The position numbers and the translations under genes are program-made. Positions 844 to 9,212 of a DNA stretch of 11,538 nucleotides are shown piece after piece. The stretch is taken from contig CANBFZ010000024.1 in the NCBI GenBank assembly GCA_947367725.1, positions 1-11,538 of the forward strand. The letters run 5' to 3'. Positions within the stretch are counted from its first letter, which is position 1. Every line of letters starts with the position of its first letter. The stretch is from an uncultured Eubacterium sp. Lineage in GTDB: Bacteria; Bacillota; Clostridia; Peptostreptococcales; Anaerovoracaceae. The notes below the pieces were generated by a model that was not told the origin of the DNA, did not search any database, and saw nothing but the letters and a program-made list of their open reading frames with translations.

Positions 844-1136
844 AGTTGTGCATATCAATCCATATTTGCTGTATTTGCACAACTTTCTTGCTGCCGTGGT
901 GGCGGCAGTTGTGCATATCAATCTATATTCGCTGTATTTGCACAACTTTCTTGTTGTCGCAGTGGCGGCAGTTGTGCATATCAATCCATAATCACTGTAG
1001 TTGCACAACTTTCTTGTTGTCGCAGTGGTGGCAGTTGTGCATATCAATCCATAATCACTGTGGTTGCACAACTTTTTTGTTGTCGTGGTGGCAGCAGTTG
1101 TGCATATTAACTCATAATTACTGTGATTGCACAACT
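844..1136. repeat. Tandem array of five 63-bp repeats with 9-bp inverted arms
   Basis: Five units start at 844, 907, 970, 1033 and 1096, exactly 63 bp apart. Each begins AGTTGTGCA, has a 23-base spacer, and ends with the perfect reverse complement TGCACAACT (876-884, 939-947, 1002-1010, 1065-1073, 1128-1136). Arms are invariant in all five units, while the central spacer drifts (units 1-2 alike, 3-4 alike, 5 most diverged). The 22-base linkers (TTCTTGTTGTCGCAGTGG core) are also repeated, and a degenerate linker precedes unit 1 at about 822-843. The array lies between two divergent promoters (725-753 and 1232-1260). Because 63 is a multiple of three, every frame without a stop stays open, which creates false repeat-protein ORFs. 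It could be a protein-binding array, a hairpin-forming repeat or a mobile REP/MITE-like expansion. Confidence 0.93.
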
Positions 1137-1231
1137 TCACAATAACATTGAAAGTTATAGTCATGAAAAGCAACTCTTTTTTATCAATGATTCACAGCAC
1201 TGGTTCGTGTTACCCTACCCATGTGCAATTC

Positions 1232-1260
1232 TTGACACTAAAAGATCACAAAGCTATACT
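1232..1260 (+). promoter_or_regulatory. Consensus sigma-A promoter of the secreted-protein gene
   Basis: TTGACA (1232-1237) is a perfect -35 box, followed by an optimal 17-base spacer and TATACT (1255-1260). The predicted start near 1267 lies downstream of the first in-frame ATG at 1127 and fits translation from the ATG at 1301. Confidence 0.8.
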
Positions 1261-1300
1261 TGCTTTGCAAAGATTACCCATTTCTATGAAAGGAAATTTT

Positions 1301-1711
1301 ATGAAAAGAAAATTAATTTGCCTATTTCTGATGATGGCGCTGGCTGTCGGCATGACTTCTGTCTTTGCATTCGCAGATGACGCATCCACTTATAGCACTG
1401 GGTCTGTAGGAATCACTGCAAAACGAATCAGCGACACCAAAGCTGCTGCCAGTGTAGCCGTTACATTTACTTCAACTGCTAAAAGCTATACTGTAACCAT
1501 CACTTTACAGAAAAAGTCTGGCAGCAGCTGGGTTACCGCTACTGATGTTAGCGGCAACACCATCAAATATGTCGGTTCCGATAAGAAAACTGTTTTAACT
1601 TATGATGAATGGAACGTCAAAAAAGGTGTCGTATACAGAATTAAGTGTGTTAGCATAGATAGATACGATGGAGTTCAATTCTCTAGCACCGATTATTCTA
1701 ATCCTTTCTAA
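1301..1711 (+). CDS. Small secreted protein of unknown function (136 aa)
   Basis: I do not recognise a specific function. Residues 1-25 are a classical Sec signal peptide: basic MKRK, a hydrophobic core (LICLFLMMALAVGM), and a likely signal peptidase I site after AFA, before DDAS. The mature part of about 110 residues is rich in Ser, Thr, Val and Lys. It alternates short polar and beta-prone stretches (VAVTFTST, YTVTITLQKK, TVLTYDEW, VYRIKCVS), suggesting one small beta-sandwich domain, as in many short secreted clostridial proteins. It has one mature-region cysteine and no anchor motif, so it is probably released. The start at 1301 was chosen over the longer frame from 1127 because AAAGGAAA sits just upstream, a signal peptide follows directly, and the promoter at 1232-1260 excludes the earlier ATG. 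It is monocistronic and convergent with the anti-sigma gene. Confidence 0.8.
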   Translation: MKRKLICLFLMMALAVGMTSVFAFADDASTYSTGSVGITAKRISDTKAAASVAVTFTSTAKSYTVTITLQKKSGSSWVTATDVSGNTIKYVGSDKKTVLTYDEWNVKKGVVYRIKCVSIDRYDGVQFSSTDYSNPF

Positions 1712-1714
1712 AAT

Positions 1715-1739
1715 TTAGAGAGTCTTATCATCTCTCTAA
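1715..1739 (-). terminator. Hairpin at the convergent gene ends
   Basis: TTAGAGAG (1715-1722) and CTCTCTAA (1732-1739) form a perfect 8-bp stem with a 9-base loop. The hairpin contains the stop codon of the minus-strand anti-sigma gene and starts 3 bases after the plus-strand stop. On the minus strand it is followed by ATTTTAG, a short U-tract; on the plus strand no U-tract follows. It is a weak intrinsic terminator at best. Confidence 0.4.
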
Positions 1740-2579
1740 TGCATCTGCAATTTTCTTGAACTCCGCATCCGACAATTCTATTTCAATATTGCATACACTG
1801 TTGTTAAAAAGGAAAAAACCATTCTTGCCCATATCTTCTTTCATTCTTATCTCTATACCTGCATCAGTTTCAATACTTCGATCATAATCCTTTATTAATT
1901 TCACATCAGTTCCCAAATCTTGTACAATATGCAATACCTCTTTCCCATTTACAAAGGTATAACTGTATGTCTGGACTAATTCAGTCGCTTCAATATTCAA
2001 CATCTGGAAAGTATATCCTTCCGGAATATATCGAGGTATCAGCAAATCCGGATACATTTTCTTAATTGTATCAATTCGATTCCAATTGTCAATGATAACT
2101 TTTTTAACACCAAGATTCTCCCCGGCTTCGCCTTGCCCCGGTTTCACAATTACGTTATTGCCCTCTTCTGTCACTTTCGGCGGATTTTTTCCAGCGATGA
2201 CAGTGTCAGGAATCACCGAATTCACAACACTTGCTGTACCGCAACAACCCAAAACCAGACAGGCCGCAACCGCTGCATATTTTCTTCGGCGGGCATGCTT
2301 TTTCTGGCGCGCTTCTTCTACCCAGCCTTCTATGACAGCCGGTGTAAGGACTGTCTTTTTCTGTTCAATCTTTCTAGGGTTTCGCATCTGTTCCTTTCTG
2401 TCTATGTCCTTTATCTTTTCGCCGACTGCAGCCATAAACCAAGCTTCCTCATACGTCAGTTTCGGATCGCCGTCATCAAAGAAAGGGCGCGCTTCACCGT
2501 TATCATCAATTTTATAGTTCCTCGTAACCATCGCTCTTTTTCGTGCTTCCGCTATTGCTCGTTCCACATCGTGTTTCAT
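1728..2579 (-). CDS. Membrane-anchored anti-sigma factor-like protein with DUF4367-type C-terminus (283 aa)
   Basis: Probable partner that restrains the ECF sigma factor encoded just upstream. From the ATG at 2579, residues 1-100 are hydrophilic, charged and presumably cytoplasmic. A basic stop-transfer stretch (KKHARRRK) then precedes one membrane segment (about residues 101-122, AAVAACLVLGCCGTASVV). The outer domain of about 160 residues includes LLIPRYIPEGYTF and a C-terminal strand pattern typical of DUF4367, a domain common on clostridial anti-sigma-like proteins. No HxxxCxxC zinc anti-sigma motif is seen in the N-terminus, so the mode of sigma binding is unclear. A TTG at 2603 would add eight residues but overlies the AGGAAAGGAG ribosome binding site that serves the ATG at 2579. 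The gene overlaps the sigma gene by 68 bases, suggesting translational coupling. Confidence 0.75.
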   Translation of the reverse strand: MKHDVERAIAEARKRAMVTRNYKIDDNGEARPFFDDGDPKLTYEEAWFMAAVGEKIKDIDRKEQMRNPRKIEQKKTVLTPAVIEGWVEEARQKKHARRRKYAAVAACLVLGCCGTASVVNSVIPDTVIAGKNPPKVTEEGNNVIVKPGQGEAGENLGVKKVIIDNWNRIDTIKKMYPDLLIPRYIPEGYTFQMLNIEATELVQTYSYTFVNGKEVLHIVQDLGTDVKLIKDYDRSIETDAGIEIRMKEDMGKNGFFLFNNSVCNIEIELSDAEFKKIADALER

Positions 2580-3108
2580 CGCGCGCTTCGCTCCTTTCCT
2601 CAATCATTTTTCTCAGAACCTTACGTGCTCTGTTCTCAATGGTCTTTACTGAATTGTAATTCATGTCAAGAAGCTTGGCGATCTCCACCATGGAAAGTCC
2701 ATGTACATAACGCAGTTGTAAAATTTTAGGCGCGGGCGGCGTAAGTTCTCCCATCAATTCGAAGATGTCTTTTCCACCAAATTCTGCTGCAAGTTCATAC
2801 GCATGCTCCTGCATCAGCTCCAGTGCTTCCAGGCAAGACTCATACTGCAGTTCGCATGCAAACTTTTTCTTGTTGCGCTTATGTACTTTGCCTGCACAGC
2901 GCATCGTAATTTTATACAACCACGAGTCCATGCTGGCCACATTTCTAAGCTGGCGAAGATGGGTATATGCTGCGATGAAAACTTCCTGCACCACATCATC
3001 TCTGTCACTATCCAGAACGCCAAAATGATAGGTCAGTTTCACAACATTGTCATACTTCTCACAAAGCAGCGCTTTACGCGCTGCCAACTCTTCCTCTGTT
3101 ATCATCAT
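2512..3108 (-). CDS. ECF-type RNA polymerase sigma factor (198 aa)
   Basis: The protein has the two-domain ECF layout and usual size. Region 2 is at about residues 20-80, with DRDDVVQEVFIAAY for core binding and DSWLYKITMRCA for -10 recognition. Region 4 is at about 120-170, where LQLRYVHGLSMVEIAKLLD and NSVKTIENRARKVLRK form the helix-turn-helix that reads the -35 element. A basic, low-complexity tail follows (STKKSDGYEEL). It is cotranscribed with and overlaps the membrane anti-sigma-like gene, the standard arrangement for a signal-responsive sigma/anti-sigma pair. Two adjacent ATGs (3108, 3105) can start it, and the upstream ribosome binding site (GAGATGCGG) is weak, which would keep expression low. 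The inducing signal and target genes cannot be inferred from this window. Confidence 0.88.
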   Translation of the reverse strand: MMITEEELAARKALLCEKYDNVVKLTYHFGVLDSDRDDVVQEVFIAAYTHLRQLRNVASMDSWLYKITMRCAGKVHKRNKKKFACELQYESCLEALELMQEHAYELAAEFGGKDIFELMGELTPPAPKILQLRYVHGLSMVEIAKLLDMNYNSVKTIENRARKVLRKMIEERSEARDETRCGTSNSGSTKKSDGYEEL

Positions 3109-3135
3109 TTACCGCATCTCATTTCTTCCACAATT

Positions 3136-3164
3136 ATTATAACGTGTCTATTTAGTTTACCATA
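3136..3164 (-). promoter_or_regulatory. Possible promoter of the sigma/anti-sigma operon
   Basis: A perfect TATAAT lies on the minus strand at 3141-3136, 27 bases before the sigma-factor ATG. At 17-base spacing the -35 position reads TATGGT (3164-3159), a poor match. No convincing ECF-type AAC/CGT pair with 16-17 base spacing was seen that would indicate autoregulation. Confidence 0.3.
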
Positions 3165-3289
3165 TTTTGAAAAAATGAAAAGGAACTCACAGGGGAAAAA
3201 TATGCAACTTCTAGGGGAAAATCTCAAAACATCTGCAATCCATGATCCTGTTTCCATAAGTTCCACCACAATTTCTGCAAAATAGCACA

Positions 3290-3320
3290 AAAGGCGCCGC
3301 ATGGTTTATACGGAGCCTTT
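3290..3320 (-). terminator. Possible terminator hairpin at the end of spoIIR
   Basis: Read on the minus strand, AAAGGCTCCG (3320-3311) pairs with CGGCGCCTTT (3299-3290) with one mismatch across an 11-base loop, then TTGTGCTATTTT. The left arm lies inside the last spoIIR codons and the stop codon is in the loop. The U-tract is interrupted, so termination may be leaky. Confidence 0.4.
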
Positions 3321-3839
3321 CATCATTTCTTTTACTTTTGATTTCAATACCAGCTTTTCAGAACCGTTTTCCTCACCGATGAGACAGAGCTGCGGAAAAA
3401 TCACGCACCACCAATTCTGCCCGTCGCCTCTGCCCAGCGTCACTTTCAGCGCTTCGTAATTGCCTGCAGGAAGTGTTAAATCCTCATAGCTCTTTTCCGG
3501 AATAAATGTCACTTTCAGTCTGGCATAAGCCGGATAGTCGAAGCCATTTTCAGCAATCACTTCCTCAGCAATGTCTTCTATATTCGAAAGATTCGCGTTT
3601 AGGTAGTCTCTGGCACTTTCCAGACTTTCCTGTCCTTCCATAAATTTGACAATTTCGTTGCGGACTTTCAGCTTTAAGGCCTGATCCTCCGCCGAATCAC
3701 TGTTGGCAACCACGTGGAGACGAATCATACCTGGGTGGTCATTGGGCGTATGGTTTATGTAATAAACCCCCATTCCGGCACACACCGAAAACAGCAGCAA
3801 CCAAATAAGAATTTCCTTTTGTAAACGTGTCAATTTCAT
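3306..3839 (-). CDS. spoIIR: Stage II sporulation protein R (SpoIIR)
   Basis: In the family, SpoIIR is made in the forespore and exported across the septum, where it triggers the SpoIIGA protease to cleave pro-sigma-E and so switches on the mother-cell programme. The 177-residue protein has an N-terminal membrane or signal segment (about residues 9-27, EILIWLLLFSVCAGMGVYY). The family signature IRLHVVANSDS follows at 39-49, continuing EDQALKLKVRNEIV. The conserved C-terminal block is PAGNYEALKVTLGRGDGQNW and WCVIFPQLC (residues 124-152). GAAAGGATGG lies 8 bases before the ATG. It sits 55 bases downstream of sipL on the same strand. In Bacillus spoIIR is under sigma-F; I could not find a convincing sigma-F promoter in the gap. 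Confidence 0.93.
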   Translation of the reverse strand: MKLTRLQKEILIWLLLFSVCAGMGVYYINHTPNDHPGMIRLHVVANSDSAEDQALKLKVRNEIVKFMEGQESLESARDYLNANLSNIEDIAEEVIAENGFDYPAYARLKVTFIPEKSYEDLTLPAGNYEALKVTLGRGDGQNWWCVIFPQLCLIGEENGSEKLVLKSKVKEMMKGSV

Positions 3840-3894
3840 ATCATTTCCATCCTTTCTATGAGAAAGTATGGACAGAAATCAGAAATCTAAACAC

Positions 3895-5526
3895 TTATTT
3901 CATAATTAAAAGTCTTTTTCCTACTTCCGGTTCTTCTTCTAGCTGATTTGCAATTTTAATATGCTCTTCCGTCGTTCTGTAACGTTTTGCCAGTTCCCAT
4001 AGGCTCTCGCCTTTTTTCATTGTCACGATCACCATGGGATATTCTTTCTCCGCGTGTTTTTCCGCAAAGCAAGGCTGGGTCAGAAGCGCAACCTCTTTTT
4101 CATCGTAAAGTTCTACGCACAAAAGAATGGTGCAGTTGATTTCAATCTGTTTTTCATTAATCAGTTCCACCCAGGCACTCTTCACCATTGCTCTAACGCC
4201 CGCTTTCTGATTGATCTGCGCCTGTTCCAGATCCACAGTACCGCGGAAATCCGGTGTAATCTTCACGCTGTGGCAATGTTCTTCCTGATCCTTCCAGAGT
4301 GCACAACATGCCGCGCTGCCGTTTACGACAACTCTGCCTCGCTCTGCACTACACTGTAAGTCCTGCAGTACCGCGGTGCAGTATATCGCTTCCGATGCTT
4401 TCATCCCCTCCTGCAGATTAACGATTTCCCGAATGGACGTCTCCGATATCGCTTCCCCAGTGATATTGGAAAGGGTCTGTTTTGTCGTTTGAAACTGGAA
4501 ATTCTTCTCCAGATGGTAAGCATCGACAATCACTTCTTTCTGCCGCAACTCGTAAAGTTCTATCCTGGTCTGTACATCCCCTTTGATACGGAACTGCACT
4601 TCTGCCCCCTCTTCTTCGCCATGGTCAATGGTGACAGCCAGATTTTTTCCATGGAAGGCAGTTTTTACCGCACTCCAGTTTTTCCCTCTCTGCTCTTTTT
4701 CAATCGATACAAACTGCGTAAATTCAATGCGCTGATTGTGATGACAGATGACAGAACGGGTATTTTCTCCGTCGTTTGCCTGTGCCGAGTACAGCAGGCT
4801 GCAGAAAATAAATCCGTTAATGACCACTTTTTCTGTCGTCACCTGTCGGTAGTTTTCTGTAATGGTAAAATCCTGTTTCAGGATATACTCTGGACGCAGA
4901 GAAGTGTCTTTTCCTTTAAACGTTTCATCAATAGAAACTTCGTCTTTTTTGGTCAGCTCCAGGCAGGTCATAGATACCTGCTCTCGCTTTGCCTGCAGGC
5001 TTTCCTCTTTCAGTCCGTCAAAAAACTGAAATTCCCGCTGGCAAAATAGCTGTCCCGTAAATTCCAGCGTGATTTTTACACGGAACTTTCTTTCATTGAC
5101 AATCATATATTCCAGATTTTTTACACGGCATCCGAATACACCATCTGCCTGATCCCTAGGATTTAAACTCCACTGGTACTTGTACGGGACTCTGGAAGTA
5201 ATAGAAATTGGTTCCTTTTCCTCCGATTCCGCATTATATATCGTCTGAATGGTAATATTCCCCGTAATGTTTAACAGGTCGTCAGTTTTGGGAGATACTT
5301 TTTTCTCTGTGGGCATAATGTCGCAGCCTGCGTCCATCAAAAGTATTTCCCTCATGTCCGGCTTGGTGTCCGGCACCAGAATATCCTCTTCAAACTCATA
5401 CGTAATGGTTTGTTCCTCCGCCGGGTAGATCATTTTCTGTGTATTATAGATGGCTTCTGCCGGAATGACTTTCGGCGCTCTCGCCGGCTGCAGGGCGTAC
5501 TCCGGTATATCCTTTTCGTATGTCAT
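3895..5526 (-). CDS. sipL: SipL-type spore coat morphogenetic protein (SPOCS/DUF3794 repeats plus LysM)
   Basis: In Clostridioides difficile SipL binds SpoIVA through its LysM domain and localises the coat around the forespore in the mother cell, the functional counterpart of Bacillus SpoVID. The 543-residue protein has the expected architecture. SPOCS-type modules lie at roughly residues 41-122 (ITYEFEEDILVPDTKPDMRE is typical), 211-280 and 353-445. The C-terminal LysM at about 498-542 has VTMKKGESLWELAKRY and ends VGKRLLIMK. Length is close to known SipL. The start follows AAGGGAGAAG at a good distance. It lies directly downstream of the nhaC terminator, so it needs its own promoter in the short stretch 5527-5580, presumably sigma-E dependent as in C. 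difficile. No clear sigma-E match was found there. Confidence 0.92.
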   Translation of the reverse strand: MTYEKDIPEYALQPARAPKVIPAEAIYNTQKMIYPAEEQTITYEFEEDILVPDTKPDMREILLMDAGCDIMPTEKKVSPKTDDLLNITGNITIQTIYNAESEEKEPISITSRVPYKYQWSLNPRDQADGVFGCRVKNLEYMIVNERKFRVKITLEFTGQLFCQREFQFFDGLKEESLQAKREQVSMTCLELTKKDEVSIDETFKGKDTSLRPEYILKQDFTITENYRQVTTEKVVINGFIFCSLLYSAQANDGENTRSVICHHNQRIEFTQFVSIEKEQRGKNWSAVKTAFHGKNLAVTIDHGEEEGAEVQFRIKGDVQTRIELYELRQKEVIVDAYHLEKNFQFQTTKQTLSNITGEAISETSIREIVNLQEGMKASEAIYCTAVLQDLQCSAERGRVVVNGSAACCALWKDQEEHCHSVKITPDFRGTVDLEQAQINQKAGVRAMVKSAWVELINEKQIEINCTILLCVELYDEKEVALLTQPCFAEKHAEKEYPMVIVTMKKGESLWELAKRYRTTEEHIKIANQLEEEPEVGKRLLIMK

Positions 5527-5578
5527 AGTTCTTCTCCCTTCAAAATGATTCCTGCTAAAACTCTATGCGTCTACCCGC

Positions 5579-5626
5579 AAAAAAAGAACCGCCCGCAGCG
5601 TTTTTCCCGCTGCGGACGGTTTTTGT
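5579..5626 (-). terminator. Strong intrinsic terminator of nhaC
   Basis: AACCGCCCGCAGCG (5587-5600) pairs with CGCTGCGGACGGTT (5608-5621): a 14-bp G+C-rich stem with one mismatch and a 7-base loop. On the minus strand it is followed by a U-tract (TTCTTTTTTT). A shorter T-run on the other side may let it work in both directions. It insulates sipL from nhaC. Confidence 0.88.
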
Positions 5627-5636
5627 AGAGCAATAT

Positions 5637-7043
5637 TTAGCTTGCTTTTGATGGTTTCTTTCCATTTTTATAGAATACACCAATGCCTGTGAAGGCGAAA
5701 ATCAGTGCTACAACCGGTGTAATCCAGCCTAAGAAGCAGAATGGCAGATAAGAAAGCGTTGCTACGCCTAATGTACTTGCCATATACATGCCGTTGGAGT
5801 TCCATGGAATCAGTGCGCAGCACATTGTGCCGGTGTCTTCCAGGGAACGGGAAAGTACTTTTCTATCAATTTCCAGATCATCGTATGCTGGTGCAAACAG
5901 CTTGGAGTTAATCAGCATGGAGCTTTCCAGAGAACCGGTCAGCGCCTGCATTGCAAAGGAGGACACCAGTGTTGCGGTAATCAGCGTGCTTGCTCTCTTT
6001 GTTACGCTTGCAACCTTTTCAAGCACAGTACGCAGTATACCTGTCGTATCCAGAATATTGCCTAAGATGCAGGCAAAGAAGTACAGCGCTACAGTCCACA
6101 GCATACTGGAAATACCGCCGCGGTTGAGCAGTCTGTCAATATCTGCTTCACCAGATTCAATCGTAAATCCGTTGTACATGATATTGGAAATATCAATAAA
6201 GGAAGTACCCTGTAAAATCATCGCCATGGCACCACCCAGCAGCGCAGATATTACAAGTCCCGGAATGGCCGGTGCTTTCTTAATTACAACAAACAACAGT
6301 ACAACAATCGGCAATAAGCAAACCGGTGTTAAGTTGAAATTTGCATCCAGGTTGTCCAGATAAAGATTTACGGTCGATTCATCAACGGTACCCTTTGCTA
6401 CGGACGTAAAGCCCAGAATGCCGTACAGTACAATAGATATAATGTAAGCAGGCACGGTCGTCCACAGCATAGAACTCATGTGTGAGAATAGTGGTACGCC
6501 GGACATAGCGGATGCCAGGTTTGTTGTATCAGAGAACGGTGACAGCTTATCTCCGAAATAAGAACCAGATACAATGGCGCCTGCAGTGTATGCCGGGTTG
6601 ATGCCAAGTCCTGCGCCGATGCCCATGAATGCGATACCGACTGTTCCGGCAGAAGACCAGGAACTGCCGCAGGCAATGGACATAAAGGAGCATACGACAC
6701 AAGCACAGATCAGGAAGAGTTTCGGATTAATAAGTTTCAAACCGATATAAATAATATACGGAATGGTACCTGATGCAATCCAGGTAGCGATAACCGCTCC
6801 GATTAGCAACAGGATAAAGGTGGCAATCAGCATACTATACACGCCGTCTAGCATCATCTTCTGGATATCATCCCATTTGAAGCCTAGATAGATCGCATAG
6901 ACACTTACCACGATAATTGCGAATAATAATGCGACACGAATGTCAATATTCCATGCCAGCAAACTTACCATCAAAATTGCTACAACAGCAATCATAACGG
7001 AGATTGCAGCAAGGAAACTCGGAGTTTTTATTTTCTTTTCCAT
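5637..7043 (-). CDS. nhaC: NhaC-family sodium-coupled antiporter / amino-acid transporter
   Basis: A polytopic inner-membrane protein of 468 residues with about 11-12 hydrophobic helices, normal for the NhaC family. Family hallmarks are SCGSSWSS-like CGSSWSSAGTVGIAFMG, GSYFGDKLSPFSDTTNLASA in the first half, and SFAMQALTGSLESSMLI and IPWNSNGMYMASTLG in the second. NhaC members exchange Na+ and H+, but relatives move malate/lactate or amino acids (lysine, methionine, tyrosine transporters have been assigned by regulon analysis). Here it is divergent from a GntR regulator next to proline and ornithine genes, so uptake or exchange of ornithine, proline or a fermentation product is plausible; this is inference. 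AAGGAG lies 6 bases before the ATG. It has its own promoter and terminator and is monocistronic. Confidence 0.87.
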   Translation of the reverse strand: MEKKIKTPSFLAAISVMIAVVAILMVSLLAWNIDIRVALLFAIIVVSVYAIYLGFKWDDIQKMMLDGVYSMLIATFILLLIGAVIATWIASGTIPYIIYIGLKLINPKLFLICACVVCSFMSIACGSSWSSAGTVGIAFMGIGAGLGINPAYTAGAIVSGSYFGDKLSPFSDTTNLASAMSGVPLFSHMSSMLWTTVPAYIISIVLYGILGFTSVAKGTVDESTVNLYLDNLDANFNLTPVCLLPIVVLLFVVIKKAPAIPGLVISALLGGAMAMILQGTSFIDISNIMYNGFTIESGEADIDRLLNRGGISSMLWTVALYFFACILGNILDTTGILRTVLEKVASVTKRASTLITATLVSSFAMQALTGSLESSMLINSKLFAPAYDDLEIDRKVLSRSLEDTGTMCCALIPWNSNGMYMASTLGVATLSYLPFCFLGWITPVVALIFAFTGIGVFYKNGKKPSKAS

Positions 7044-7146
7044 AGCTTTCTCCTTGGTTACTACTTGACTAGATACATTTCTTTACTTGTTCTGTGTACA
7101 CAAGCAACATACCGCCATACACCTCTCGGCTTCTTTAACATGTATG

Positions 7147-7157
7147 TTGTCTAACAA
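7147..7157. promoter_or_regulatory. Candidate GntR/FadR-type operator at the nhaC transcription start
   Basis: TTGTCTAACAA is a perfect 4-3-4 inverted repeat and fits the FadR-subfamily operator pattern TNGTNNNACNA exactly. It begins one base downstream of the nhaC -10 box, where a bound repressor would block initiation. A FadR-type regulator is encoded on the other side of the same intergenic region. An overlapping symmetric element, AACATGTATGTT (7137-7148), lies next to it. Confidence 0.45.
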
Positions 7158-7158
7158 G

Positions 7159-7187
7159 ATGATAACATGAAATCGCTTTTCTGCCTA
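7159..7187 (-). promoter_or_regulatory. Probable sigma-A promoter of nhaC
   Basis: On the minus strand TAGGCA (7187-7182) is followed after 17 bases by TATCAT (7164-7159), with an extended -10 TG (TGTTATCAT). It would give a leader of about 110 bases before the nhaC start. I saw no recognisable riboswitch or terminator in that leader. Confidence 0.45.
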
Positions 7188-7244
7188 TCATCCATATGGC
7201 AACGCTGCCTTGACAAAAAGATAATAAATCTAATCTGCATCTTG

Positions 7245-7261
7245 TTTGACATCTGGTCAAA
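7245..7261. promoter_or_regulatory. Inverted repeat just upstream of the gntR -35 box
   Basis: TTTGACATCTGGTCAAA has perfect 6-bp arms around a 5-base centre and ends 5 bases before the gntR -35 box. Its position suits an activator or autoregulatory site, possibly for the adjacent GntR protein, but it does not match the TNGTNNNACNA pattern. Confidence 0.35.
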
Positions 7262-7266
7262 TCCTC

Positions 7267-7295
7267 TTGACTGCCAGCAGGGAAAACGCTATAAT
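7267..7295 (+). promoter_or_regulatory. Consensus sigma-A promoter of the gntR-proC operon
   Basis: TTGACT (7267-7272), a 17-base spacer and a perfect TATAAT (7290-7295) precede the regulator ATG by about 50 bases. This is one of the two best promoters in the window. Confidence 0.8.
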
Positions 7296-7346
7296 ACCTC
7301 TGGATTACAATGATACCTATTATAATACATACAGATGGAGGTGTAC

Positions 7347-8078
7347 ATGGATAAAACTGAACTACTGGGAAAGCTATCCATGGAGCAGTTTAAAACCCAA
7401 TCCGACTATCTGGCAGATCAGATCAAGCTGATGATTACCAGCGAGGAGTTTGAGGACGGCTTTGTTTTTCCCAACGAAAATGAATTCTGTAAAATGCTCA
7501 ATGTCAGCCGCGGTACCCTCAGAGACGCCTACAAAAAATTGGCAACCCAGGGTTTCATTGAACGTACAAAAGTCGGTACCTATGTCAAGTGCCGAGATAC
7601 CATCGCCATGCAGGGGAATTACTCTGCCAGTTTGGAACTTGCTACAACGGATGAGATGGTAGAATTCATCTGTTCTTTCGAGCCGGAAGCCGCCAGCCTA
7701 GCTGCGAAAAAAATTGACGACGTCGGCATTGCAAAATTAGAAAACCTGATGCAGCTTTGTGAAAACGCCGCTGGTGATTATGATGCCCTCAATGCTGCAA
7801 ACTATGAGTTTCACAAATTTATCAGAATACAGTCGAAGAACAATCTGATCATCAGCGTTTTAAACGCATATTATGATGTATTCGACAAGCAGATTATCAA
7901 TACAATCTATCTGCTGCTGAAGGAAAACGCGAATAATTTTAAAGAGCAGGCGCTCATACAGCATCGCCAGCTGGTCGAAGCCTTTCGCAAAAGAGACGGT
8001 GAAAAAGCAAAACACATCGTCTATGATCACCTGCAGCAAGATTTAAAAACCTATACCGCTTTAAAACACCATCGTTAG
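7347..8078 (+). CDS. GntR-family transcriptional regulator, FadR/FCD subfamily (243 aa)
   Basis: Residues about 15-85 form a winged helix-turn-helix (SDYLADQIKLMI, FPNENEFCKMLNVSRGTLRD, AYKKLATQGFIERTKVGTYV). The C-terminal all-helical FCD effector domain carries the usual histidines in NYEFHKFI, in the QALIQHRQLVEAF helix and in AKHIVYDHL near the end. Where many FCD proteins have Asp before FH, this one has Asn (NYEFH), which could alter metal or ligand binding. FadR-subfamily members sense organic or amino acids. The ATG at 7347 was chosen because GGAGGT ends 4 bases before it; the in-frame ATG at 7335 overlaps that site. The proC Shine-Dalgarno overlaps the gntR stop, so the two are cotranscribed. 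Likely targets are its own operon and divergent nhaC, which is inferred. Confidence 0.88.
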   Translation: MDKTELLGKLSMEQFKTQSDYLADQIKLMITSEEFEDGFVFPNENEFCKMLNVSRGTLRDAYKKLATQGFIERTKVGTYVKCRDTIAMQGNYSASLELATTDEMVEFICSFEPEAASLAAKKIDDVGIAKLENLMQLCENAAGDYDALNAANYEFHKFIRIQSKNNLIISVLNAYYDVFDKQIINTIYLLLKENANNFKEQALIQHRQLVEAFRKRDGEKAKHIVYDHLQQDLKTYTALKHHR

Positions 8079-8089
8079 GAGGAAAAAAC

Positions 8090-8896
8090 ATGTCTCAAAT
8101 GGAACACGTAAAACTAGGATTTATTGGTTACGGAAATATGGCAGGCGCTACTGCCGCTGGGCTGATGCTTTCAGGCGCTGTACAGCCTGCGCAGATTTTT
8201 GCTTGTGCAAAAGATTATGATAAACTGTGCAAAAAAGCTGCTAGCCAAGGCATTCACCTCTGCCAAACTGCGGAGGAAGTCGCTGCAGCCTGCGACATCG
8301 TTTTCATCGGGGTCAAGCCTTATATGGTCAAAGAGGTTATGGAACCTCTTGCAGATGCGCTACGTGGAAAAGTGGTCGTCTCTCTGGCTGCAAACACCTA
8401 TCACGATGTATTAAGCGCCATTCTGCCTGACGCCCACTGTGTTGCCACCGCACCAAATACACCAGTTTCTGCCTGTGAGGGAATCTTTATCTGTGAGGAA
8501 GATAATTCTCTAACAGAGGACGAAAAAGTATTGATCAGCGAACTGCTCGGTCATCTGGGACTATTCCTTTGGATGGATCAGGCGCATATGGGTATCGCCG
8601 GCGCCATCGCTGGCTGCTCTCCTGCTTTCGTCTCTATGTTCATGGAAGCGCTGGGAGATGCCGGCTGTAAACACGGGCTGACGCGTCCTGTGGTCTACAA
8701 GCTGATTGCGCAGATGCTGGTCGGCACAGGAAAAATGGCACTGAAATCCGGTGATCATCCGGGACAAATGAAAGACGCCGTCTGCTCGCCTTCTGGCACT
8801 ACAATTTGTGGCGTAGAAGCCTTGGAAAAGAACGGGTTCCGCTTTGCAATTATGGACGCCATCGACCAGGTGCAGAAGAAAGCCAGTGGAAAATAA
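8090..8896 (+). CDS. proC: Pyrroline-5-carboxylate reductase (first copy, 268 aa)
   Basis: Reduces 1-pyrroline-5-carboxylate to L-proline with NAD(P)H in the cytoplasm. The N-terminal Rossmann domain carries the dinucleotide loop GFIGYGNMAGATAAG (about residues 10-24). FIGVKPYMVKEV is the conserved VKP segment, and ATAPNTPVS corresponds to the MPNTP motif with Ala-Thr-Ala before it instead of the usual Arg-x-Met. The C-terminal dimerisation and active-site signature is SPSGTTICGVEALEKNGFR. Length is normal. AGGAGG overlaps the gntR stop, 11 bases between genes, so it is the second gene of a regulator-led operon. It differs widely from the second proC at 9219-10022, so the pair is not a recent duplication. 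Pairing with a regulator rather than biosynthesis genes suggests a catabolic or redox role, by inference. Confidence 0.88.
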   Translation: MSQMEHVKLGFIGYGNMAGATAAGLMLSGAVQPAQIFACAKDYDKLCKKAASQGIHLCQTAEEVAAACDIVFIGVKPYMVKEVMEPLADALRGKVVVSLAANTYHDVLSAILPDAHCVATAPNTPVSACEGIFICEEDNSLTEDEKVLISELLGHLGLFLWMDQAHMGIAGAIAGCSPAFVSMFMEALGDAGCKHGLTRPVVYKLIAQMLVGTGKMALKSGDHPGQMKDAVCSPSGTTICGVEALEKNGFRFAIMDAIDQVQKKASGK

Positions 8897-8928
8897 GAAA
8901 ATCGGCTGCGCTAATTCTTTTCAAGTGA

Positions 8929-9130
8929 AAAGTTCTGCATTTTAAAGTTAAAATGGCAAAAATGCAGAACCCAGTTCTGCAAATCCATAAAAAAACACAT
9001 GAATTGCAGAACTTTCCAAATCAAATCATGATTATAGAAGCAAAAAGTTCTGCAAATCAAGTTCTAAAGTACCAAAATGCAGAACCCAGTTCTGCAAATC
9101 AGTAAAAAGCACCATGAAATGCAGAACTTT
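8929..9130. repeat. Two tandem 87-bp elements made of four 41-bp inverted-repeat units
   Basis: Copies at 8929-9015 and 9044-9130 begin AAAGTTCTGCA and end TGCAGAACTTT (perfect 11-bp terminal inverted repeats). Each has the inner palindrome TGCAGAACCCAGTTCTGCA (8963-8981; 9078-9096). All corresponding arms are offset by exactly 115 bp. The element can also be read as four units of AGTTCTGCA, 23 bases, TGCAGAAC(C/T), starting at 8931, 8973, 9046 and 9088. Unit 1 can extend to a 12-bp stem (8932-8943 with 8959-8970). Loops are A-rich and poorly conserved; arms are fixed. The array sits between convergent proC genes, inside the probable 3' untranslated region of the plus-strand operon. No clear target-site duplication was found. 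Confidence 0.92.
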
Positions 9131-9167
9131 GCGCTTTCTATCCGTTTTCAGCGGCAGTACCCCGCAT

Positions 9168-9212
9168 AAAAAAATAGAGGATCAGTTCCAACAGAACAGT
9201 CCTCTATTTTTT
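9168..9212. terminator. Bidirectional intrinsic terminator between the two proC operons
   Basis: AAAAAATAGAGGA (9169-9181) pairs with TCCTCTATTTTTT (9200-9212), with an inner GTTC/GAAC pairing in the loop. A-runs on one side and T-runs on the other give U-tracts on both strands, serving the gntR-proC operon (plus) and the ortAB-proC operon (minus). Confidence 0.85.

Follow-up and report, generated by a model that had tools for sequence, protein, structure and literature searches.

The 11,538-nucleotide stretch of DNA analyzed here (the window) is one whole contig, CANBFZ010000024.1, of an uncultured Eubacterium sp. (assembly GCA_947367725.1). It carries two arrays of short inverted arm pairs, designated the G-type and C-type arrays, and the spacing of these arms follows the turns of the DNA helix. 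There is little doubt in our view that such arrays are phased DNA sites. They probably serve as multi-site DNA platforms for a sequence-specific, likely dimeric protein, with a geometry like that of the operators of phage AimR. The genome of the window (G000; 2.12 Mb, 360 contigs, 73.6% complete) shares the G word with genomes G011 and G007, and these three are one another's closest kin (aspartokinase identity of 95-96%, versus at most 90% for others). G012 and G006 are genus mates with other words. Gene calls around the arrays are open frames only.

Layout and helical phasing of the arrays

The G-type array (positions 844..1136, no strand assigned) consists of five inverted-pair units (ten arms) with a unit period of 63 bp, located at 844-884, 907-947, 970-1010, 1033-1073 and 1096-1136. 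Its arms are AGTTGTGCA/TGCACAACT, and all five units have perfect 9-base arms. The C-type array (8931..9128, likewise without strand) has the arms AGTTCTGCA and four units, at 8931-8971, 8973-9013, 9046-9086 and 9088-9128, with unit steps of 42, 73 and 42. An initial annotation of the window had placed both arrays at these positions with an arm offset of 32 and a spacer of 23 bases, and these values were confirmed for all nine units. It had also described equal arms throughout; the length is indeed the same, but the right arm ends in C rather than T in the units at 8931 and 9046, leaving perfect arms in seven of the nine. The further claim that the spacers are largely unrelated does not apply within the G-type array, which is a 63-bp tandem repeat whose later copies are 78-90% identical to the first, so that the spacers repeat too. 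The two-arm pattern has seven exact matches in the window, versus none in 200 shuffles.

The phasing becomes apparent when many loci are compared. Arm order was recorded as "> then <" for a left arm followed by an inverted right arm, and steps were counted within 220 bp using the 8-base core GTTGTGCA. At the G000 loci, all 48 "> then <" core steps measure 31 or 32 bp, and in G011 28 of 33 fall within 31-33 bp. The remaining steps between arms cluster at multiples of ~10.5 bp. As a descriptive measure, R(10.5) for "< then >" steps is 0.96 in G000 (n=39), 0.88 in G011 (n=27) and 0.96 for the word of G012 (n=49); for same-strand steps, the corresponding values are 0.90 (n=14), 0.92 (n=13) and 0.97 (n=29). 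Both arm orientations fall in one helical phase, arguing that the sites lie on one face of the DNA.

The number of units is also stereotyped. Twenty-six G arrays were tabulated, allowing at most one mismatch per arm (13 gaps in G000, 11 in G011 and 2 in G007); a two-arm pair at L082 (offset 29) and the lone units of G024, G031 and G060 were kept out as chance matches. Five pairs are present in 16 of these arrays and four in 7, while six, three and one pair occur in 1 array each. The unit steps of the five-pair arrays run 53-54, 71-95, 73-104 and 53-54 in eight, are all near 63 in four, and are irregular in the other four. Two of the C arrays contain five units, and their outer steps are symmetric (42, 73, 74, 42 and 43, 62, 84, 43).

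Conservation of the arms and the two families

The initial annotation had suggested that the arms are selected either as a symmetric binding site or as a paired structure. Selection as a symmetric site is supported by orthologous gaps. Five such gaps gave seven pairwise alignments, in which the arms themselves provide part of the anchoring. Identity is 93% for core-arm bases versus 50% for the other bases of the array span (ranges by alignment, 82-97% and 37-72%). The secA gap was excluded from this identity count because the G007 array there is down to one pair. Eighteen of the 25 alignment gaps are 1-6 bp long, and the seven of at least 10 bp measure 10, 10, 11, 10, 20, 11 and 31 bp.

The argument for a paired structure rested on the exchange of G for C in one arm being compensated in the other, and it is not supported. 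The 105 units of G000 comprise 48 G-G, 45 C-C, 1 T-T and 11 mixed units with A or T, and no G-C unit at all; G011 has 28 G-G and 4 mixed units, and G007 has 6 G-G units. Since G-C units are absent from the 105, the apparent covariation reflects the membership of each array in one of two families. Arms that mutate without compensation do occur, in a minority of units: one-arm changes to A or T are uncompensated in 11/105 units in G000, 4/32 in G011 and 0/6 in G007.

The majority of the C loci are copies of a mobile element. One or both of its two flanks occur at 15 of the 20 C loci, and both occur at five (the window, L023, L024, L095 and L201). In the window, the left flank common to other G000 copies of the C-type element lies at 8903..8930 on the forward strand (a 17-base probe matches with 2 mismatches at 8903), and the right flank common to other copies lies at 9129..9172 on the same strand (a 19-base probe matches with 4 mismatches at 9134; the end was placed by eye). 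The C-type element thus has the dispersed short copies sharing both ends that define a miniature inverted-repeat transposable element (MITE). C-C units are absent among the 14 exact units of G011 and the 3 of G007. The C array at L092 has unrelated spacers, and G011 has no array at the matching place. Beside that array (L092:3500-3990), a pyrroline-5-carboxylate-reductase-like frame that is present at the matching place in G011 is mostly missing from G000. At L023:2496-3330 (contig G000:C121), a one-unit copy of the C element and an IS200-like Y1 transposase gene are ~0.3 kb apart.

Distribution and genomic setting

The window arrays had been taken for members of a dispersed, possibly undescribed repeat family with subtypes, and a scan of the genome and its relatives for the two-arm pattern did find many more copies, in both G and C families. 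With a spacer of 18-28, exact matches number 56 in G000, 14 in G011, 3 in G007 and 1 each in G024 and G031, with zero in the remaining 36 of the 41 genomes; a reversed-pattern control gave 0 matches in all 41. With a spacer of 22-25, matches were found in 5 of 296 family genomes (G000 56, G011 13, G007 3, G024 1, G060 1). In G000, the G arrays number at least 13 and the C array loci about 20, and the C form with up to 2 mismatches finds 64 units in this genome, G units among them. In a collection of named genomes, the strict G pattern occurs in 27 stretches, 11 of them from Emergencia; the other 16 contain one unit each in scattered taxa and are read as chance. Viral collections gave 9 and 42 stretches with a lone unit apiece, which were also taken as chance. 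No description of these arrays was recognized in the literature searched, in keeping with the suggestion that the family is undescribed.

The genes next to G arrays are mixed and largely of a housekeeping kind, including those for citrate lyase, glycine hydroxymethyltransferase, PlsX, isopropylmalate synthase, an aconitase family protein, SecA, aspartokinase, MatE and an M32 peptidase, among others. Among 27 G rows, the flanking genes are codirectional in 17, convergent in 6 and divergent in 2, with 2 unassigned. In the window, the G-type array has as neighbors a divergent gene for an amidohydrolase and a small gene that matches nothing in Pfam, and the C-type array sits between two convergent pyrroline-5-carboxylate reductase genes.

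Other words in genus mates

A similar layout is found with different words in other members of the genus. G012 contains 140 exact GCGCCATG pairs, every one among the matches listed having an offset of 31. These pairs are absent from the other 12 genus genomes except for one stray in G005, and from all 119 genomes of a family sample. At 15 array loci of G012, the inter-unit steps are 52-53 bp with one exception of 43. Nine of 16 G012 arrays reach a contig edge (e.g. L184, L191, L194 and L195), and so assembly breaks probably hide larger arrays. In G006, four exact AATTAGGT units occur at two loci with a 63-bp period.

Some array positions are shared in spite of the change of word. The gap downstream of aspartokinase contains G arrays in G000 and G011 and GCGCCATG pairs in G012. 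Considering G012 genes with an ortholog in the G-word loci, 3 of 4 that are array-adjacent in G012 are array-adjacent there too, versus 1 of 15 other G012 genes (Fisher p=0.016). The array is on the same side of the gene for aspartokinase and for a TipAS-type MerR regulator, and on the opposite side for a MatE-like gene.

Loci were also scanned with a detector that uses no word. In loci of G000, G011 and G007 (423,770 bp), it picked out 27 places, one of which is a TTGACAA array; G012 array loci (118,334 bp) gave 10 and G006 (103,042 bp) gave 1. Nothing was picked out in other G012 loci (98,394 bp), other genus mates (549,690 bp), ten other genera (338,089 bp) or bystander loci (577,446 bp), absences that hold for the sampled sequence and for a detector that misses some arrays. 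A further 379,459 bp from genus mates gave one match, an unphased tandem repeat in G004, which was set aside because its 90-bp period is not a whole number of turns. G004 contains inverted, unphased tandem repeats of ~90-102 bp at L180:6536-6850 and L285:486-765, with AATGRTTCT arms, a TATAAT-like stretch and a GC hairpin. Separately, an inverted TTGACAA/TGACAA word forms small intergenic clusters in the G-word genomes, and some of its steps are close to 28-29 and 53-55 bp (L084:1705-1915, L086:623-738, L080:13056-13210, L020:4404-4530 and L091:2854-3041).

A proposed platform for a dimeric protein

In the model that we propose, each pair would hold one dimer, and the distance between its two reading heads would be three turns, as for phage AimR. 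About five dimers would be aligned on one face of ~300 bp of DNA, and assembly could proceed by bending, wrapping or bridging. An arrangement with a single dimer on each pair and about five dimers per assembly is favored because AimR has the closest geometry in the literature consulted, although we regard the occupancy of each pair by a dimer as an evenly balanced question. Co-evolution between the word and its protein would preserve the word within a lineage, and the C-type element would be a mobile copy that has spread in the G000 genome. Because the arrays lie between genes of any orientation, their placement suggests a chromosome-architectural, titration or long-range role and not that of an ordinary promoter switch; an architectural or titration role in particular is put forward tentatively. 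We are more doubtful about the broadest version of the model, in which the arrays would be a new class of chromosomal nucleoprotein site, with some five dimers of a fast-evolving protein assembling on one face of the helix at fixed intergenic locations. Each lineage would rewrite the word across its arrays, with the geometry and part of the positions preserved.

Several results count against this model. The binding protein was sought and not found, and no candidate that was tested tracks the arrays. For a 495-aa helix-turn-helix protein encoded beside a G012 array, 8 of 13 genus genomes gave matches, but G000, G007, G011 and G006 gave none, and a census of HTH_3 proteins over the genus was not discriminating, with many matches everywhere among the matches listed. 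Ten of the 26 G arrays do not have five pairs, the irregular steps noted above affect 4 of the 16 five-pair arrays, and 5 of 33 "> then <" core steps in G011 are longer or shorter than 31-33 bp. The phasing values are not independent counts, being drawn from arrays that are kin by duplication, orthology and mobile copies, and the anchoring of ortholog alignments by the arms favors the contrast between arms and the rest. In addition, AimR operators, which are not known to come in arrays, are described in PMC6458997 as single sites in a phage genome, whereas the present arrays are stereotyped, five-pair and dispersed over a chromosome.

Other explanations

A different binder would be a 146-aa LytTR protein without a receiver domain, present in the three G-word genomes, which might bind AGTTNTGCA boxes and control their neighbors. 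This protein is 91-97% identical in G000, G007 and G011, and its 153-codon open frame is in no other of the 68 LytTR matches listed over 13 genus genomes (30 of the 68 loci were compared by sequence). The VirR consensus, CCCAGTTNTNCAC, is arm-like, though it was not found in the literature searched. LytTR boxes are ~9-12 bp long and need to lie on one helix face (PMC2838878, PMC4064291, PMC2688746), with critical spacing (PMC2838878, PMC4064291), and the arrays resemble VirR- and AgrA-type operators in this respect. However, the known operators of this type are direct-repeat pairs just upstream of promoters, whereas the arrays consist of inverted pairs in gaps of any orientation, including the convergent ones. 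The co-occurrence with the G word is confounded because the three genomes are closest kin, no array adjoins the gene for the protein, and homologs with 45-63% identity occur widely (120 of 291 listed). We therefore consider LytTR operator arrays unlikely. A function as RNA hairpins, whether terminators, attenuators or small RNAs, is highly improbable. Six single units fold better than shuffles (z of -2.9 to -5.2), but this is expected of any inverted repeat; there is no Rfam match at E<=1 within the window, the A/T arm changes are uncompensated, and helical phasing between units has no role in RNA while it fits protein on DNA.

The arrays might also be neutral remains of a five-unit, MITE-like element that spread them without any host function. 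The element flanks at C loci, the lack of exact C-C units in G011 and G007, and the stereotyped G layouts, which shared descent would give, are all consistent with this idea. Neutral remains would nevertheless decay evenly, whereas in orthologous G gaps the arms outlast the spacers and the longer indels are whole turns, making this explanation improbable as well. A family like the repetitive extragenic palindromic (REP) elements and bacterial interspersed mosaic elements (BIMEs), moved by a RAYT (Y1) transposase, is very unlikely. The arrays do resemble these elements (PMC2817692) in being dispersed and intergenic with alternating orientation and species-specific words, and a single C-element copy lies ~0.3 kb to one side of a Y1 gene in G000. 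On the other hand, none of nine Y1 loci (8 genomes, at most ~1.5 kb of flank seen) is bordered by arrays on both sides, and this reading was rejected. REPs are defined in the same source by a GT(A/G)G head and, after it, a GC-rich palindrome with a loop of 2-4 bases, and the units have neither, with 8-9 base arms and a 23-24 base spacer instead. Furthermore, REP hairpins need no helical phasing, whereas the array spacing is in whole helical turns. An array of clustered regularly interspaced short palindromic repeats (CRISPR) was also rejected, as the arms are inverted and the 844-1136 array repeats its spacers too (cas genes were not searched for). G009 contains, at L150:13596-13994, direct repeats with a 66-bp period and unrelated spacers that look like an ordinary CRISPR.

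Comparison with known operators

The dimer-platform model is best compared with the AimR (arbitrium) operators of SPbeta-group phages. According to PMC6458997, the AimR operator consists of two 6-bp inverted boxes with a 25-bp spacer and a box offset of 31, the box words differ between SPbeta and phi3T, and an AimR dimer bridges the boxes with similar affinity for spacers of 23-28 bp. The arrays share the two inverted boxes of AimR/RRNPP-type operators, with a core offset of 31 or 32 bp, as well as the long spacer under little sequence demand and the variation of the word among relatives. Operators of this type are bound by an HTH-TPR dimer, and the receptor gene lies next to one for a peptide; no AimR-like protein was identified here. 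Helical phasing combined with whole-turn indels provides a signature of a multi-dimer complex that can be read from sequence, and it makes both the protein and its role testable. A word that differs from one species of the genus to another, in an unchanged layout, would offer a natural experiment in the joint evolution of a DNA-binding protein and its many sites. Among other multi-site systems, the Lrp sites in pap are several sites about three turns apart that are wrapped by the protein, and datA is a titrating cluster of five DnaA boxes. Both have other site words and are single loci, whereas the arrays form a dispersed family.

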